Origin: a gamma proteobacterium symbiont of Ctena orbiculata
GTDB lineage: Bacteria > Pseudomonadota > Gammaproteobacteria > Chromatiales > Chromatiaceae
Direction of reading: 5' to 3'
Assembly: GCA_003058525.1 (NCBI GenBank)
Contig: QBVD01000007.1
Span: 1-37,662 of the forward strand
DNA length: 37,662 bases
This document shows, piece after piece, positions 16,272 through 23,070 of the stretch. How positions within the stretch are numbered: the first letter of the stretch is position 1; the number at the start of each line of letters is the position of its first letter. The notes beneath the pieces were generated by a model. It had not been told where the DNA came from. It saw nothing but the letters and a program-made list of their open reading frames with translations, and did no database searches. The position numbers and the translations under genes were made by a program.

Positions 16272-17159
16272 CTAAACCAGTCCGCTGAATGTGAGAAGCG
16301 CGACTATCACCAGATAGACAACAAGCGATCTCCAGACGAGGGCCATGGCGGCTTTGGCAAGAAAGCTGAAGGATTGCACTCCCTCATTCGCTTCGTTGAT
16401 CAGCGTCGAGAGCCGCATGGCACCGCCGCCGCTACAGATCAGGGTTCCGTTGTTGCTGTCGGCGAATTCGCTGAATCGGTTTTCGTGGTAGCTGCGCCAG
16501 CCGTAAAGGGCGTCCTCGAAACTGCCTGCGATGGCGTAACAGAAAGCGGTTAATCTAGCAGGAATCCAATCAAGGATTGTGACCAACTGTTTGCTGTTGA
16601 GGTGGAAATCGGGATCTTGATTGGCCTGCTCCATTGTCGGCAACCAGGTGGCGATGCGATAGGCCATCGAGCCGATTGGACCCAACAGTATGAACCAAAA
16701 GAGTACTGAAAACAGACTTTGGTTTGCCTGGGCCAGCACGCCTTCGGCCACCGCTTGAGAGCGTGCCGGTTCGCTGGTTGGCGGTTCATCCTTGATAAGC
16801 GCGGCGGCAGAGGCCCTGATTTCGTTATCCTCATCACTATCGACGGCCTCGATATAGCGGTTGACTTGCGTGTCCAGGTCATTGGGGCCCAGACAGTAGA
16901 GCAGAATTGCCACCGAGAGTGCGAACCAGAGCAATCCGAATAGGGCATCTTCAAACAGATGTTGCAATATTGACAGCGCAAGCACGGGTGGCAGTATCAA
17001 CAGCAGTACCCCGATGACACCCCGCCTCATCCGTTGGGGTAGCTGGTGCCGGTCAAACCACTGGTAATAGGTAGTGAACCAGCCATTGTCACGCAATCCG
17101 CTGTAACCGAGTAGAAAACGTTCTGCTATCAGACAGATTAAAATGATCGTCAGAGTCAT
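16272..17159 (-). CDS. ampE: AmpE-family membrane protein
   Basis: A 295-residue inner-membrane protein resembling E. coli AmpE (284 aa), distantly related to the CbiB/CobD family. Hydrophobic segments lie at the N-terminus (after MTLTIILICLIAERFLLGY), near residues 45-62 and 75-92, at 150-168 and at the C-terminal end (WRSLVVYLVIVALLTFSGLV). The conserved LDWIPARLTAFCYAIAGSFE block is clear. AmpE is linked to ampD and beta-lactamase induction in enterobacteria, but its activity is unproven. It lies 219 nt downstream of ampD rather than abutting it, and the gap has no gene on either strand that I can support. A TATAAT-like box at about 17356-17361 (minus strand) lacks a convincing -35. Confidence 0.82.
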   Translation of the reverse strand: MTLTIILICLIAERFLLGYSGLRDNGWFTTYYQWFDRHQLPQRMRRGVIGVLLLILPPVLALSILQHLFEDALFGLLWFALSVAILLYCLGPNDLDTQVNRYIEAVDSDEDNEIRASAAALIKDEPPTSEPARSQAVAEGVLAQANQSLFSVLFWFILLGPIGSMAYRIATWLPTMEQANQDPDFHLNSKQLVTILDWIPARLTAFCYAIAGSFEDALYGWRSYHENRFSEFADSNNGTLICSGGGAMRLSTLINEANEGVQSFSFLAKAAMALVWRSLVVYLVIVALLTFSGLV

Positions 17160-17378: not shown

Positions 17379-17933
17379 TCACTCCGGTGCTGATATCGAG
17401 TCTAAATAGCGTGGCCAGTCGAACATCGGCCCGGGGTCTGTTTTACGCCCCGGCGCAATGGCGGCATGGCTTGTTATACGATCGTGGGTGATCGCAGGAT
17501 AGTGGTGCATGACTTCTCTGGTGACTTGCTGCAGGGCCTGGTATTGATCATCTGTGAAGGGTATCTCGTCCGAGCCTTCGAGTTCGATGCCGATGGAGAA
17601 ATCATTGCAGCAGCTCCGACCGCAATAATGAGATTCCCCGGCATGCCACGCCCGCCGGTTCAAGGGGACATATTGCGTTATTTTGCCTGTGCGCTGGATG
17701 AGTAGGTGACAAGAGACCTTGAGCGCTTTTATTTCGGTAAAATATGGGTCTGCCGTAACATCGAGTTTGTTTATGAACAGATCATCGATCCAGCCCCCTC
17801 CAAACTCGCCGGGAGGCAGGCTGATACTGTGAATGACAAGCAGGTCGACCTCAGTTTCAGGAGGTCGGTCATCCATGTTTTCCGATGGGTGAAACTCAGC
17901 GCAATCCAGTAGAATGTCTTCAGATTGGATCAA
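17379..17933 (-). CDS. ampD: 1,6-anhydro-N-acetylmuramyl-L-alanine amidase AmpD
   Basis: A 184-residue amidase_2 enzyme (183 in E. coli) that cleaves anhydro-muropeptides in the cytoplasm during cell-wall recycling; its loss raises AmpR-driven beta-lactamase expression in some species. Zinc ligands match AmpD: His35 (LLVIHSISLPPGEFGG), His156 and Asp166 (ITSHAAIAPGRKTDPGP). The RAWHAGESHYCGRSCCNDFS and IGIELEGSDEIPFTD segments are also conserved. The start is TTG at 17933, overlapping the CBS gene stop (TTGA); the next in-frame ATG would delete part of the fold. The overlap places ampD in the DUF1538/PII/CBS transcript. No signal peptide is seen. Confidence 0.92.
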   Translation of the reverse strand: MIQSEDILLDCAEFHPSENMDDRPPETEVDLLVIHSISLPPGEFGGGWIDDLFINKLDVTADPYFTEIKALKVSCHLLIQRTGKITQYVPLNRRAWHAGESHYCGRSCCNDFSIGIELEGSDEIPFTDDQYQALQQVTREVMHHYPAITHDRITSHAAIAPGRKTDPGPMFDWPRYLDSISAPE

Positions 17934-18343
17934 CTCAGTTCCGATTTGGTTTTGAGCCCTTTCAACACCATATCGGTATAGCTGACGATACCCACGATTT
18001 CGCGGTTGTCCACGACAGGCGCTCTGGAAAGGTCAAAGCGGCTGAAGATTCTTGCGCAGTAGCGAATGTCCATACTTGAAGAGACGGTCAATGCAGGCTT
18101 GGTCATGATTTCATAAATATTGACCCGCTCCGGCGCCCGGTCCTTGGCCAGTACCTGGCGGGCAATATCGGAAAGCATCACCAATCCATACTCGTCGTCG
18201 TCATTGCGTTTTTTGACAATCAACGATTTGGTCTCTATATGGATCATGCGTTCAAGTGCCATTAGTACGGTATCCATCCCGTCGACCATGTCAAAGTCGG
18301 TTTTCATGACATCCCGAACCCTGATTAGTTGTCGATCGTTCAT
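17930..18343 (-). CDS. CBS-domain pair protein
   Basis: A 137-residue stand-alone Bateman module. CBS1 spans about residues 10-65 (RVRDVMKTDFDMVDGMDTV to YGLVMLSDIARQVL) and CBS2 about 76-132 (IYEIMTKPALTVSSS to APVVDNREIVGIVSYTDM). Such pairs bind adenosine nucleotides (AMP, ATP, SAM, c-di-AMP) and control partner proteins; the partner is probably encoded next door. It overlaps the PII-like gene upstream (ATGA) and ampD downstream (TTGA). The ligand cannot be read from sequence alone. Confidence 0.85.
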   Translation of the reverse strand: MNDRQLIRVRDVMKTDFDMVDGMDTVLMALERMIHIETKSLIVKKRNDDDEYGLVMLSDIARQVLAKDRAPERVNIYEIMTKPALTVSSSMDIRYCARIFSRFDLSRAPVVDNREIVGIVSYTDMVLKGLKTKSELS

Positions 18344-18690
18344 AACTCCTCCTCGATAACTTGTGTGAGTGTCTGGATCTGGTGGCTGACGCCGACCGCA
18401 TCTTCGATGTCTAGTTGAAAGGCGATGCCATTTCCCGGTTCTTCATCAAACTGGCCGGCTTTTGATATTGTCTCCAGAATGGTACGGCTGAGATGCTCCT
18501 CGACCAGCAGCAACAATACATCCCGTTGAGTATCAAGGGTCAAACCGAGAAATGTCTTTGACTGGTTGACACCCTCGCCACGCGCATGATTGATGACTGT
18601 GGAGCCTGTGGCTCCTGCGGATCGGGCAGCCTCAAGAACCTTTTCGGTTGTAGTGTCTTCTACCAGGGCGATGATGAGTTTGAAGTGCAT
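18340..18690 (-). CDS. PII-like signalling protein
   Basis: A 116-residue protein with a PII/GlnB-like layout (112 aa in GlnB). It starts MHFKLIIALVEDTTTEKVLEAARSAG, has an altered T-loop region (about 37-56, HARGEGVNQSKTFLG), the core strand RDVLLLLVEE, and a B-loop-like FDEEPGNGIAFQ (81-92) in place of the usual TGxxGDGKIF. The tyrosine uridylylated in GlnB is absent, and the C-terminal RTGE-type segment is not recognisable. It probably senses a nucleotide or metabolite for the DUF1538 proteins: it starts 5 nt after the second DUF1538 stop and overlaps the CBS gene. It is not a classical nitrogen regulator. Confidence 0.75.
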   Translation of the reverse strand: MHFKLIIALVEDTTTEKVLEAARSAGATGSTVINHARGEGVNQSKTFLGLTLDTQRDVLLLLVEEHLSRTILETISKAGQFDEEPGNGIAFQLDIEDAVGVSHQIQTLTQVIEEEL

Positions 18691-18695
18691 GAGAT

Positions 18696-19478
18696 TTACC
18701 TCGTTGTATCATCTGTCTTTCTTTTCGAACGCCATTCGCTCAGCTGAGCGTAGGCCATGACTGACATGATCGGAAAAAGGCAGGTAAAGGCGATGAGGCC
18801 AAAGCCGTCCATCACAGGATTGCGTCCCGGTATATTACTCGATAGTCCAAGTCCAAGAGCCGCAACTAGTGGAACCGTGACAGTGGAAGTGGTTACCCCT
18901 CCGGAATCGTAAGCCAGGGCGATGATCGAACGGGGGGCATAGACTGTCTGCACAATCACCACCACATAACCCGCCATGATGTACCAGTGTAAAGGCGTGC
19001 CGGAAATTATCCGGTAGCAACCCAGGGAGACACCGACCGCAGCGCCGATGGCGACCGCAATGCGTAATCCCCACTGACTGATGGCGCCTGCAGAGACTTG
19101 ATTCGCCTTGATGGCGACAGCAATCAGGGAGGGTTCTGCAATGGTGGTGGAGAAGCCGATGCTGGCCGCAAACAGATAGACCCAGAAGTAGTGGTGCCAT
19201 TGAACGGTACCGGCTGTAGTGGGAATATTGAGTATTTCAGGGGAGGTGAGCTGATTCGCCATCAACTCGCCCAGTGGGAAGAGGGCCAGATCCAGCCCCT
19301 CCAGGAAAAATACCAGGCCAAACAGAACCAGAAGAAAGCCAAACAGGACCTCTTTAGGGTTTTTTATCGGTCTGCGCAGAACCAGGAACTGGAAGCCAAT
19401 AAGGATACCGGCGATCGGCAGGACATCGAGGATCGTGCCTATCATCACTGCGAAGAAGTGCTGCAAGGCTTCGTTCAT
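18696..19478 (-). CDS. DUF1538 membrane protein, second copy
   Basis: A 260-residue multi-pass membrane protein of the DUF1538 family (Pfam), function unknown, proposed to be transporter-like. Hydrophobic segments cover most of the length. The highly conserved [21 protein letters not shown] and [11 protein letters not shown] are present, as is [14 protein letters not shown]. The C-terminus is a short basic cytoplasmic tail ([14 protein letters not shown]). It overlaps the first copy by 4 nt (ATGA) and shares its core motifs, so the two probably arose by duplication and may form a heteromer. Confidence 0.83.
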
Positions 19479-20278
19479 AGCAGTAATCCATATCCCATGA
19501 CGAAGATCATCGGGGTCAGAGAGGCAAAGGCGATCAGGCCGAATCCATCGGTCATTGGATTGCGGCCCTTGATGCTGGAGGCGAGTCCTACGCCAAGGGC
19601 GGTAACCAGGGGAACGGTGACTGTGGATGTGGTGACCCCACCTGAGTCATATGCAATACCAATAATTTCTTTTGGTGCTATAGCTGTCATTAATACAACA
19701 CCAAGATAACCGCCAATGATCAGATACTCCACGGGCCAGCCCTTAACGATACGCACTACGCCGAACACAATTGCGAATCCGACGGATATCGCTACGGTGT
19801 AGCGTAATCCTTGGGCATATTCCTCTTGTGCATGGGCTGTATTTTCGATCATACCGCCGACAGCGGCCACATTGGCTGCCTCCTGGGCGATTTTGATCAA
19901 TGCGGGCTCAGCCACCGTTGTACCGAATCCGAGGGCGAAAGCGAACAGCAGCAGCCAGGTCAGGCTGCCCTTCCTTGCAAAATCCCATGCCATGCCTTCG
20001 CCGATTGGAAATAGGCCAAGATTCAAGCCCTCGATAAACAGGGTCAGGCCCAGCAGGACCAGCACCGATCCTATGAGGATGGTGCCGAGATTGGGTATTG
20101 GCTGTTGCAGGACCACCAACTGAAAAAAGGTGATGACCAGTACAATCGGCAACAGATCACGGATGCTGTCGGCGAGGGAAGAGAATAGGCGTTTGAGTAG
20201 GCGCATCGATGGAGGTGGGGCTGTTTCAGGTCGTTTATTGCTCTTCTTTGGGACAGGCCTTTTGGAGCTATTCCGCAA
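19475..20278 (-). CDS. DUF1538 membrane protein, first copy
   Basis: A DUF1538-family protein of up to 267 residues and the first gene of the cluster. The conserved [35 protein letters not shown] and [13 protein letters not shown] match the second copy. The start is uncertain: the listed TTG gives a basic N-terminal extension ([17 protein letters not shown]), while an ATG at 20206 ([15 protein letters not shown]) would begin just before the first membrane segment. Neither has a good Shine-Dalgarno sequence. The family tends to occur as pairs or fused repeats, which fits the tandem here. Confidence 0.78.
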
Positions 20279-20730: not shown

Positions 20731-23070
20731 ATGCAAAGGCAAGACAACATTATTACATTCGGCTCAGCTGTGCCCCGTCGAAAAAAAATCACTCTTGACG
20801 TGAACGGACGTAGGATTGCGTCTGAGTGTCGCAATCTCGTAGGTAAAACGTTACCAAAATTGATGAGCGGCCTATTCGAGAATCTCGATGATGCTCTCTA
20901 TGAAATGGCCAACAAATCCGAGAGCAACGCCCTGCAGAATATCTATTTCGACTCCATGCGAGAGCTCCGCAAGCAGCGGTCAGGTATCGATCGCAGGTTT
21001 AACCAGGAAGTTCTGCGGGCCTACGATAGTTACTGGCAAACGGGCGAAATAACGATCCAACAACCGACCCTCGATGAACTGAGTCTGGAATCGGAAATGT
21101 CGCTGGTGGATGATGAGGATCTGGAAGACTCATTAGCCGTCACTAATATGGTCAGCAAATCCGAGAGCCGCTACACTCGCGAACTCTACGCCATGAGTCA
21201 ACGTTTCGGCTACCTGATCGGGGGTGGATCTGTCGATGAGACTATGGCCCAACACACCCCACTGGCGCCGGGTGTCATCTGCAACGCATTCCAGATCTCG
21301 ATGGCGGGTGTTCCAGTTGAGCTGCCGGTCAAATTGGTTGTCTACAAGTTGTTTGACCGCCACGTGATGCACTATATCGGTGGCCTGTATGATGAGATCA
21401 ATCTGCTCTTGGGCCGTGCCGGTGTCATACCCAAGCTGACACCAAAGGTCCGCCGCAATCCGGTTTCCCCAAGCTTGCGTGGTGATGGGGGCGAAAGCTA
21501 CATGGCAAGTGACTCATCCTATATGAGTTCATCCGCACCCGCATCCACCGCAACAGCCGCAACGGAAGAGGTGATCCAGGCTGAGTTGTTTTCAAACCTG
21601 CAGCAACTGCTCAACCTCAGACGTGCAAGTGCCGGTGGAAGCAGTCTGTTGGCATCCAGTCTGATGCTTACCCCACCGGCCGGCAATGTTCCAGTTGTCG
21701 ATACAGGTGAACTCCTGGGTGCGCTCTCAGCTATCCAGCAGTCGAATGTGGTGATGCTGCCTCAAGGGCGTCGAGTCAATCAACCCCTGACACCCGATGA
21801 GATGCGGGCTCAATTGGTCACTGATCTGCAGATCGCCAGGGATGGTCAGGTCGTACGCTCTCTTGGGGATGCGGACAACGATACTATCGATGTCATCTCC
21901 ATGATCTTCGAGTTTATCCTCGATGATTACAGCCTGCCCGATGCCATGAAGGCACTGATCAGTCGTCTGCAGATACCCATGCTGAAAGTGGCGATCATCG
22001 ACAAGACTTTTTTCAGTCAGAAGGTTCATCCCGCAAGGCGATTACTCAACAGCCTGGCTCAGGCAGCTGTTGGCTGGAATGATACAGGTGATCGTGCCAA
22101 CGACACCCTGTATAAAAAGATCGAGCAGGTAGTAAAAAGGGTTTTGAACGAGTTCCACGACGATCCCGGTCTGTTTGCGGAGTTGGAAGAGGATTTCTCG
22201 AGTTGGTGGCAGAAGGAGCAGCGAGGCGCACAGATTGCGGAGCAGCGCACCAATCAGATAACCAAGGGAAAAGAGCAGCTCAAATCAGCCAAGCAGATCG
22301 TTTCTGAAGAGCTAAACAAGCGGTTACGCACTCAAAATGTCATTCCCGAGGCGGTGATGTCTATTCTTGAGGACGGCTGGAAAGATGTACTGTTACTTAT
22401 CTACCTGCGTGAAGGATCGGAGAGTAAAGGCTGGAGCGAGGCATTGGAACTCGTTGACAGGCTGTTGTGGAGTGTACAACCCAAGTCCGAATATGGGGAA
22501 AGGCAGCAATTACTGCGCGGTATCCCTGAACTGTTGAGAAATATCCGCGAACGGCTGAATAGCATCTCATTTGATCAACATAAAATGGCCAAGTTGTTTA
22601 AAGAGTTGCAAAACTGCCATATCGGCGTCTTGCGTGGCGGAGACAGCAGTCAGATACATACCGCTGGAACGATGCCGGTTAACCAGTATGAGATCCATTT
22701 TCCGGATAGCAAACTTGTGGCTGATCCCAACAGCCAGCTGCATGAAATGGCTGAAGAAGCGATCAGTGAGAATGATGATTTCACTCAGCAGGCGGTTGAT
22801 CTGGAAACCGGTGAATGGCTTGAAATTATTGATGGAAGCAGTAAGGTTCGGGTCAAATTGTCGTGGAAAAGCAATGTTACAGATACCTATATCTTCGTTA
22901 ACCGTAAAGGCATGAAAGCCATGGAACTCACCACCTTCGGCCTGGCCAAGCGTTTGCGTGAAGGCACGGCGAAAAAGGTGGAACTTTCAGCCAAGCCGAT
23001 CATGGATCGAGCCCTGGATGCAATGCTCGATGCTTTGAAGAAAACAACTTCAACCTCTGCATCAGCCTAG
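20731..23070 (+). CDS. DUF1631 family protein
   Basis: A 779-residue cytoplasmic protein of the DUF1631 family, common in gammaproteobacteria and of unknown function. N-terminal helical region about 1-250 (ECRNLVGKTLPKLMSGLFENLDDALYEMANKS), a Ser/Ala/Thr-rich linker at about 257-280, a long middle helical region, and a C-terminal beta-rich part at about 690-760 (GEWLEIIDGSSKVRVKLSWKS then YIFVNRKGMKAMELT) whose pattern recalls PilZ-type c-di-GMP domains, though the RxxxR motif is not evident. No signal peptide or membrane segment is seen. It is transcribed alone; a strong hairpin follows the stop. Confidence 0.82.
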   Translation: MQRQDNIITFGSAVPRRKKITLDVNGRRIASECRNLVGKTLPKLMSGLFENLDDALYEMANKSESNALQNIYFDSMRELRKQRSGIDRRFNQEVLRAYDSYWQTGEITIQQPTLDELSLESEMSLVDDEDLEDSLAVTNMVSKSESRYTRELYAMSQRFGYLIGGGSVDETMAQHTPLAPGVICNAFQISMAGVPVELPVKLVVYKLFDRHVMHYIGGLYDEINLLLGRAGVIPKLTPKVRRNPVSPSLRGDGGESYMASDSSYMSSSAPASTATAATEEVIQAELFSNLQQLLNLRRASAGGSSLLASSLMLTPPAGNVPVVDTGELLGALSAIQQSNVVMLPQGRRVNQPLTPDEMRAQLVTDLQIARDGQVVRSLGDADNDTIDVISMIFEFILDDYSLPDAMKALISRLQIPMLKVAIIDKTFFSQKVHPARRLLNSLAQAAVGWNDTGDRANDTLYKKIEQVVKRVLNEFHDDPGLFAELEEDFSSWWQKEQRGAQIAEQRTNQITKGKEQLKSAKQIVSEELNKRLRTQNVIPEAVMSILEDGWKDVLLLIYLREGSESKGWSEALELVDRLLWSVQPKSEYGERQQLLRGIPELLRNIRERLNSISFDQHKMAKLFKELQNCHIGVLRGGDSSQIHTAGTMPVNQYEIHFPDSKLVADPNSQLHEMAEEAISENDDFTQQAVDLETGEWLEIIDGSSKVRVKLSWKSNVTDTYIFVNRKGMKAMELTTFGLAKRLREGTAKKVELSAKPIMDRALDAMLDALKKTTSTSASA

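Follow-up and report, generated by a model that had tools for sequence, protein, structure and literature searches.

The window analyzed here, a stretch of 37,662 nucleotides (nt) of contig QBVD01000007.1 (assembly GCA_003058525.1) from a gammaproteobacterial symbiont of Ctena orbiculata, carries four minus-strand genes arranged head to tail: umpA, umpB, and the genes for a PII-like protein and a CBS-pair protein, here called P and C, respectively. We consider it reasonably likely that the four encode a regulated monovalent cation/proton antiporter, with P as a docking gate and C as an adenylate input. The genes, called as open reading frames (ORFs) and given in window numbering with lengths in amino acids (aa), are as follows.

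19475–20206, minus strand: umpA-like DUF1538 membrane protein; 243 aa from an ATG, with the ORF open to a TTG at 20278; Pfam PF07556, 1.1e-68; NCBIfam UmpA, 379.6 bits.
18696–19478, minus strand: umpB-like DUF1538 membrane protein; 260 aa with a hydrophilic C-terminus; PF07556, 4.2e-67; NCBIfam UmpB, 352.5 bits; AlphaFold2 model confidence (pLDDT) 87.6.
18340–18690, minus strand: P, PII-like protein, proposed dedicated antiporter gate; 116 aa; Pfam P-II, 3.6e-12; model pLDDT 77.
17930–18343, minus strand: C, stand-alone CBS-pair protein, proposed adenylate sensor; 137 aa; Pfam CBS, two stretches, 7.7e-17; conserved among relatives.

umpA and umpB overlap by 4 nt, as do the P and C genes, and a 5-nt gap separates umpB from the P gene. 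An earlier reading, made from the letters of the window alone (the sequence-only reading), had joined two DUF1538 genes, a PII-like gene, and a CBS-pair gene into one group, and the ORFs, the Pfam matches, and the junctions agree with it. That reading extended the first gene to 20278; the ORF is present, but this position is the upstream TTG, and the ATG start gives an end at 20206 and the 243 aa that are usual for UmpA among relatives. The 16-residue core said to be common to the two DUF1538 proteins is found in both. Their PF07556 scores, 231.1 and 226 bits, far exceed the gathering cut-off of 22.6. Scans for repeats, promoters, and terminators gave nothing informative.

The DUF1538 proteins had been taken to be of unknown function. 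That view is rejected, as the best NCBIfam models for the pair are UmpA and UmpB, in that order, and UmpAB is a published antiporter. Meng et al. (2017) cloned umpAB from Halomonas zhaodongensis and found that co-expression rescues E. coli KNabc. The Halomonas genes overlap, their products co-immunoprecipitate, and the heterodimer exchanges Na+, Li+, and K+ for H+ at pH 6.5–9.5 with K0.5 values of 0.26–0.46 mM, making it a Na+(Li+,K+)/H+ antiporter (PMC5484666). The DUF1538 heterodimer proposed in the sequence-only reading thus has a demonstrated counterpart in the family. The window pair, at 379.6 and 352.5 bits, misses the UmpA and UmpB equivalog cut-offs (NF041627/NF041628, 490/500 bits). 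None of 369 gammaproteobacterial genomes passes the UmpB cut-off; the best of them, G342 (469.9 bits), has P 15 nt downstream of this closest match to the Halomonas UmpB profile, followed by C after 14 nt (L142/L250). Na+(Li+,K+)/H+ antiport is demonstrated for the Halomonas pair, and we infer it for the window pair. The nearest named relative of the window UmpB, 95% identical, is encoded in a metagenome-assembled genome of Candidatus Thiodiazotropha (L062). When a natural UmpA-UmpB fusion (L080) is aligned with the separate subunits, the conserved columns all fall on one half.

The text of the Halomonas UmpAB paper contains none of the terms PII, P-II, and CBS. The ORFs listed there for the clone, of 323, 402, 254, and 271 codons, fill about 3.75 kb of a 4.2-kb insert (PMC5484666). 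P and C are unlikely both to have been in the clone, because the remaining <0.5 kb would be too little for the two together. In the open-licence literature, to which the search was confined (subscription papers and preprints lie outside this scope), no link of DUF1538 or UmpAB to PII or CBS proteins was found. What is already known is therefore the UmpAB antiporter; its regulatory half, P and C, was not found in print within that literature. The published antiporter was characterized without two genes that nearly always come after it in related genomes.

Conservation of P and C beside DUF1538

The gene order was surveyed in 80 named loci, the closest of 568 relatives, with flanks reaching at most 5 kb; the sample is biased toward close relatives. 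DUF1538, P, and C occur in this order in 79 of the 80 (partial, fused, and split copies counted), far beyond chance. The one exception is L099, where the 666 bp left after umpB contain neither P nor C. A 4-nt overlap joins the P and C genes in 70 of the 78 loci scored, and the umpB-to-P gap, with P taken as 116 aa, is -16 to 162 nt in 77 loci and 797 nt in one. Named relatives that have the unit include Vibrio, Photobacterium, Shewanella, methanotrophs, and clam symbionts.

A first sample of 56 genomes near the host contained 36 positives. P and C are present in 28 of 29 short loci, the exception (L024) being a contig end, and P is present in 29 of 30 wider loci, the exception (L038) being a second, fused DUF1538 locus of genome G034. 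At L038:4932-6665 a fused DUF1538 protein has neither P nor C adjoining; the other copy in that genome (L037) has both.

An even draw of the class gave 369 genomes, 126 of which have an UmpB/DUF1538 match, and all 126 were inspected. P adjoins DUF1538 in 122 of them and C in 109. Three of the four without an adjoining P are contig-end breaks (G066, G067, and G229), with P elsewhere in each genome. The pattern is incomplete in two of the 122: in G156 (L175), P is separated from umpB by about 1.4 kb, and G224 keeps only an UmpB remnant. Genome G087 was assigned from a locus with the rearranged order P, C, DUF1538 fusion (L292:2023-4283). An apparently decayed extra copy, with DUF1538 fragments followed by P-like and CBS-like pieces, was seen at L285 (G280:C2).

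The reciprocal search, with P as query against the same 369 genomes, found matches in all but one (125) of the 126 genomes with DUF1538 and in four of the 243 negatives; the weakest matches in positive genomes were counted by their position in the unit. Two of the negatives (G132 and G351) are contig ends bearing P and C, and the other two (G035 and G250) have 112-aa PII proteins scoring <22 bits. Apart from the two contig ends, no clear P-type orphan was found in the 243 DUF1538-negative gammaproteobacterial genomes.

Outside the Gammaproteobacteria, 103 drawn genomes of other Pseudomonadota classes were positive, and 42 were inspected, 25 spanning many families and 17 from the best-scoring loci. 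P adjoins DUF1538 in 37 of the 42 (21/25 and 16/17), with further DUF1538 copies in G480 and G505 left out of the count. C adjoins in 17 of the 42 (6/25 and 11/17), though the short flanks of the 17 added loci could miss a distant C. The 11 C-bearing genomes of the added set belong mostly to one family, f200. The idea that C is a purely gammaproteobacterial addition was dropped, given these 11 genomes. Nine plasmid records have a DUF1538 match. Six were opened, of which five are annotated and the sixth is not. On all five annotated plasmids, from Chelativorans, Methylocystis, Peptoclostridium, Vescimonas, and Paraclostridium (the last three clostridial), the gene directly after DUF1538 is annotated as a P-II family nitrogen regulator; their gene tables, which are incomplete, list no CBS gene.

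The neighborhood that the sequence-only reading had taken for a system is therefore a recurring one, in which P is the constant partner of DUF1538 and C the patchier one. Judged from sequence conservation, a functional tie between P and DUF1538 is strongly supported.

Such a tie could also run the other way: P and C may be signaling proteins that read UmpAB activity, in the manner of GlnK sequestration by AmtB, and control something else, e.g., transcription or an enzyme, with the transporter serving as sensor. Canonical PII proteins do have several targets (PMC10710835), and UmpAB transports without P or C. The surroundings of the unit argue otherwise. Five tested window neighbors are poorly kept beside it (of the 80 named loci, 18 have AmpD and between 6 and 11 have each of the other four), and the P-DUF1538 link holds where C is absent, so any other target would be unlinked. 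We hold this explanation to be unlikely. The two neighbors on the C side of the unit are as follows.

17379–17933, minus strand: AmpD (anhydro-muramyl amidase), local neighbor outside the conserved unit; NCBIfam PRK11789, 2.7e-80; 18 of 80 named loci.
16272–17159, minus strand: AmpE/CobD-like membrane protein, local neighbor outside the unit; Pfam CobD_Cbib and AmpE; 10 of 80 named loci.

AmpD and AmpE were considered as members of the unit and rejected on these low counts. The AmpD ORF, too, overlaps C by 4 nt, its TTG start overlapping the C stop (TTGA, 17930–17933), and the amidase may share the message here. Upstream of umpA lies the gene for a divergent DUF1631 protein (20731–23070; PF07793, 693 bits; PacR family, 298 bits against a cut-off of 1200), found beside the unit in 10 of the 80 named loci.

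The P and C proteins

P scores 47 bits with the P-II profile, for which the cut-off is 25, and its model matches PII-type structures in Foldseek with TM-scores of about 0.5–0.6. PII-type names are attached to 47 of the 50 Foldseek rows shown, and Thermus TT1020, which we take to be a PII protein, accounts for the remaining three. CPII is among the structural neighbors.

The residues with canonical roles in PII proteins are the uridylylated Tyr of the T-loop, the Lys of GDGK, the C-terminal RxR, and a T-loop Gln. Besides P, the host genome holds two PII proteins of canonical type (L408 and L409), in which all of these are present. In P they are replaced, and the T-loop is about 6 residues shorter. 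Alignment of P from 45 of the 80 named relatives places Ile or Met at the GDGK Lys position in 45 of 45 rows. With the canonical ligand residues replaced and the T-loop shorter, P has the PII fold but is no sensor of the GlnB/GlnK type. The sequence-only reading had counted P among proteins that bind nucleotides, a view to which the motif lends no support. It had also offered cyclic di-AMP (c-di-AMP) as a candidate ligand. For this host, c-di-AMP is disfavored: a search for the DAC cyclase domain, positive in 11 of 14 control genomes, found none in the host genome. In Clostridia, c-di-AMP is still a possible ligand.

C has two PF00571 stretches in tandem. The adenosine-ribose motif of CBS domains is (S/T)xxD. 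In the first CBS of C, all 31 aligned relatives have Asp59, but 26 have Leu or Met where the motif calls for S/T; in the second, Ser121 is found in 27 of 31 rows and Asp124 in only 17. The sequence-only reading had counted C, too, among nucleotide-binding proteins; its CBS site residues are only partly kept. Adenylate input through C would be the weakest part of the mechanism.

Tight gene coupling, such as the frequent 4-nt overlap of the P and C genes (70 of 78 loci), and the loss of PII ligand residues would also be expected if P and C were stabilizing or assembly subunits rather than ligand-driven switches. We think this quite improbable. In the 45 relatives, 28 of the 116 positions of P are invariant, several of them charged; R37, G38, E39, G40, E64, H66, R69, G86, G88, D97, and Q104 are among them. 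C keeps Asp59 (31/31) and Ser121 (27/31). Moreover, the Halomonas UmpAB subunits co-precipitate and work in E. coli without P and C (PMC5484666).

Variants and paralogues of P

Where DUF1538 is fused, the PII part varies. P and then C follow the fusion in 10 loci; elsewhere, a second, unlike PII-like gene comes after P (e.g., L032-L035, L039, and L258-L260). Three loci have, after the fused DUF1538, a single PII chain of 384–392 aa (L300:5159-6313; L299:5087-6265, where DUF1538 is divided between two ORFs; and L272:227-1402). Genomes G177, G268, and G328 have this kind of chain. The profile clearly identifies two PII domains in these chains and gives a third at independent E-values of 0.14–0.35. 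A single three-row profile-profile comparison, at 91.9% and E 7e-7 against 0.1% for a CBS-alignment control, makes a third PII-like domain probable. Clostridial PII proteins are 222–224 aa long, and of three, one has two P-II stretches by Pfam. PII proteins are homotrimers. Since the copies here are linked, a ring with non-equivalent positions is suggested. GlnK and SbtB are described as trimers (PMC10710835).

A paralogue of P, 43% identical, adjoins in the same direction a gene for a PF00999, TrkA_N, and TrkA_C protein in genome G282 (L282:4033-6415). Close orthologues of this paralogue (82–100% identical) were found in 7 of 61 genomes near G282, and a CPA2-type antiporter adjoins in 6 of the 7 loci, in two genera. 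The antiporter was called by Pfam in L282 and L376 and by sequence likeness in L372, L373, L375, and L377; in L378 a transposase-like gene (by eye) stands in its place. This linkage, confined to one small group, independently supports PII control of cation/proton antiport. Three further cases have no DUF1538 nearby: a P copy in G394 (L283) upstream of a cytochrome-bd-like gene (by eye), one in G297 (L284) close to a protein without a Pfam match, and two tandem PII-like genes in G256 (L289:3903-4668), convergent with a BCCT-like gene (by eye). Apart from G282 and CPA2, no common theme was found among P copies away from DUF1538.

A broader proposal, which we put forward tentatively, is that P represents a distinct PII branch specialized as gates of cation/proton antiporters, with UmpAB as its target in both Pseudomonadota and Bacillota and a CPA2-type antiporter as an occasional one. 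Its pseudo-twofold target may have made the PII ring asymmetric repeatedly, through two unlike genes, a two-domain chain, or a three-domain chain. If true, a trimeric transporter is not required for PII control, and PII-family signaling reaches ion and pH homeostasis directly.

Proposed mechanism and comparison with known systems

In the proposed mechanism, UmpA and UmpB would form a heterodimeric antiporter that moves Na+ or K+ out in exchange for protons. P would dock on the cytoplasmic face of UmpAB and slow or stop antiport depending on what it has bound; the ligand would most probably be an adenine nucleotide or some other indicator of energy or ion state. Such gating would prevent wasted proton-motive force or K+ loss. 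C, a soluble CBS pair widespread in Gammaproteobacteria and scattered outside the class, would provide a second, adenylate input, either via P or directly on UmpAB.

These steps differ in strength. That P and C regulate UmpAB we infer from conservation of the sequences and their order. The parallel with AmtB-GlnK and SbtA-SbtB, in which PII proteins act directly on the transporter (PMC10710835), makes direct docking of P likely. The direction of control, i.e., inhibition at low energy, and the identity of the ligand are speculative. The "energy- or nucleotide-gated transporter" of the sequence-only reading survives insofar as PII and CBS partners suggest gating; of the two, C is less constant than P.

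Several points weigh against a P-gated antiporter. P lacks the canonical PII nucleotide residues. No P lies beside DUF1538 in five genomes outside the Gammaproteobacteria (L332, L358, L359, L370, and L329), at the second, fused locus of G034 (L038), or in G318, which has a single 223-aa DUF1538 and no P in a genome 72% complete. The weakest P matches in positive genomes (G268, 21.9 bits; G228, 25.7; G113, 30) are about as low as the two weak negatives. Transport does not require P or C, since UmpAB is active in E. coli KNabc in their absence (PMC5484666). The known PII-gated transporters are trimers (PMC10710835), and UmpAB is a reported heterodimer. Finally, neighborhood alone leaves room for P and C to act on something else.

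It is also conceivable that the unit transports another substrate, e.g., bicarbonate or an organic anion under SbtB-like control, with antiport in Halomonas being secondary. Two PII-like proteins with ties to bicarbonate are SbtB and CPII, the latter structurally near P, and the nearest named relatives belong to Candidatus Thiodiazotropha, lucinid-clam symbionts that fix CO2. Against this, the unit is found in Vibrio, Photobacterium, and Shewanella, and DUF1538 with P-II is found on clostridial plasmids; to our knowledge, none of these hosts is a CO2-fixing specialist. Antiport was assayed directly for a family member (PMC5484666), and a growth-pH model has DUF1538 among its tabulated key features of pH adaptation (PMC13255231). 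We judge transport of another substrate to be very unlikely.

If P and C gate UmpAB, marine bacteria, methanotrophs, and clam symbionts possess a cation/proton antiporter whose dedicated regulators are of the PII and CBS kinds. PII-type sensing would be tied to Na+/K+ and pH balance, and some "P-II family nitrogen regulator" labels would cover roles other than nitrogen control.

The window unit resembles UmpAB of H. zhaodongensis in its paired DUF1538 proteins from overlapping genes, with UmpA and then UmpB as best models, and differs in that the pair scores under the equivalog cut-offs (380/490 and 352/500 bits). As in GlnK-AmtB, a PII-fold protein is encoded beside a transporter, and docking is proposed here. 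Unlike GlnK, P is without the uridylylation Tyr and the Lys, Arg, and Gln ligand residues; its T-loop is shorter by about 6 residues, and its partner is a reported heterodimer, not a trimeric channel like AmtB. SbtB, the AMP-dependent inhibitor of the bicarbonate transporter SbtA, is likewise a non-canonical PII-like protein tied to one transporter; that transporter is of another family, and we know of no CBS partner for SbtB-SbtA. CPA2-type antiporters (PF00999 plus TrkA_N) share cation/proton antiport and have the P paralogue beside them in 6 of 7 loci, whereas the window DUF1538 proteins have no PF00999 match in Pfam and the UmpB model has no confident match in the PDB. In the CBS-pair-regulated transporters MgtE and OpuA, the CBS pair serves, as proposed for C, as a nucleotide or ion sensor (PMC10710835); there it is fused to the transporter, and in the ump unit it is free-standing.

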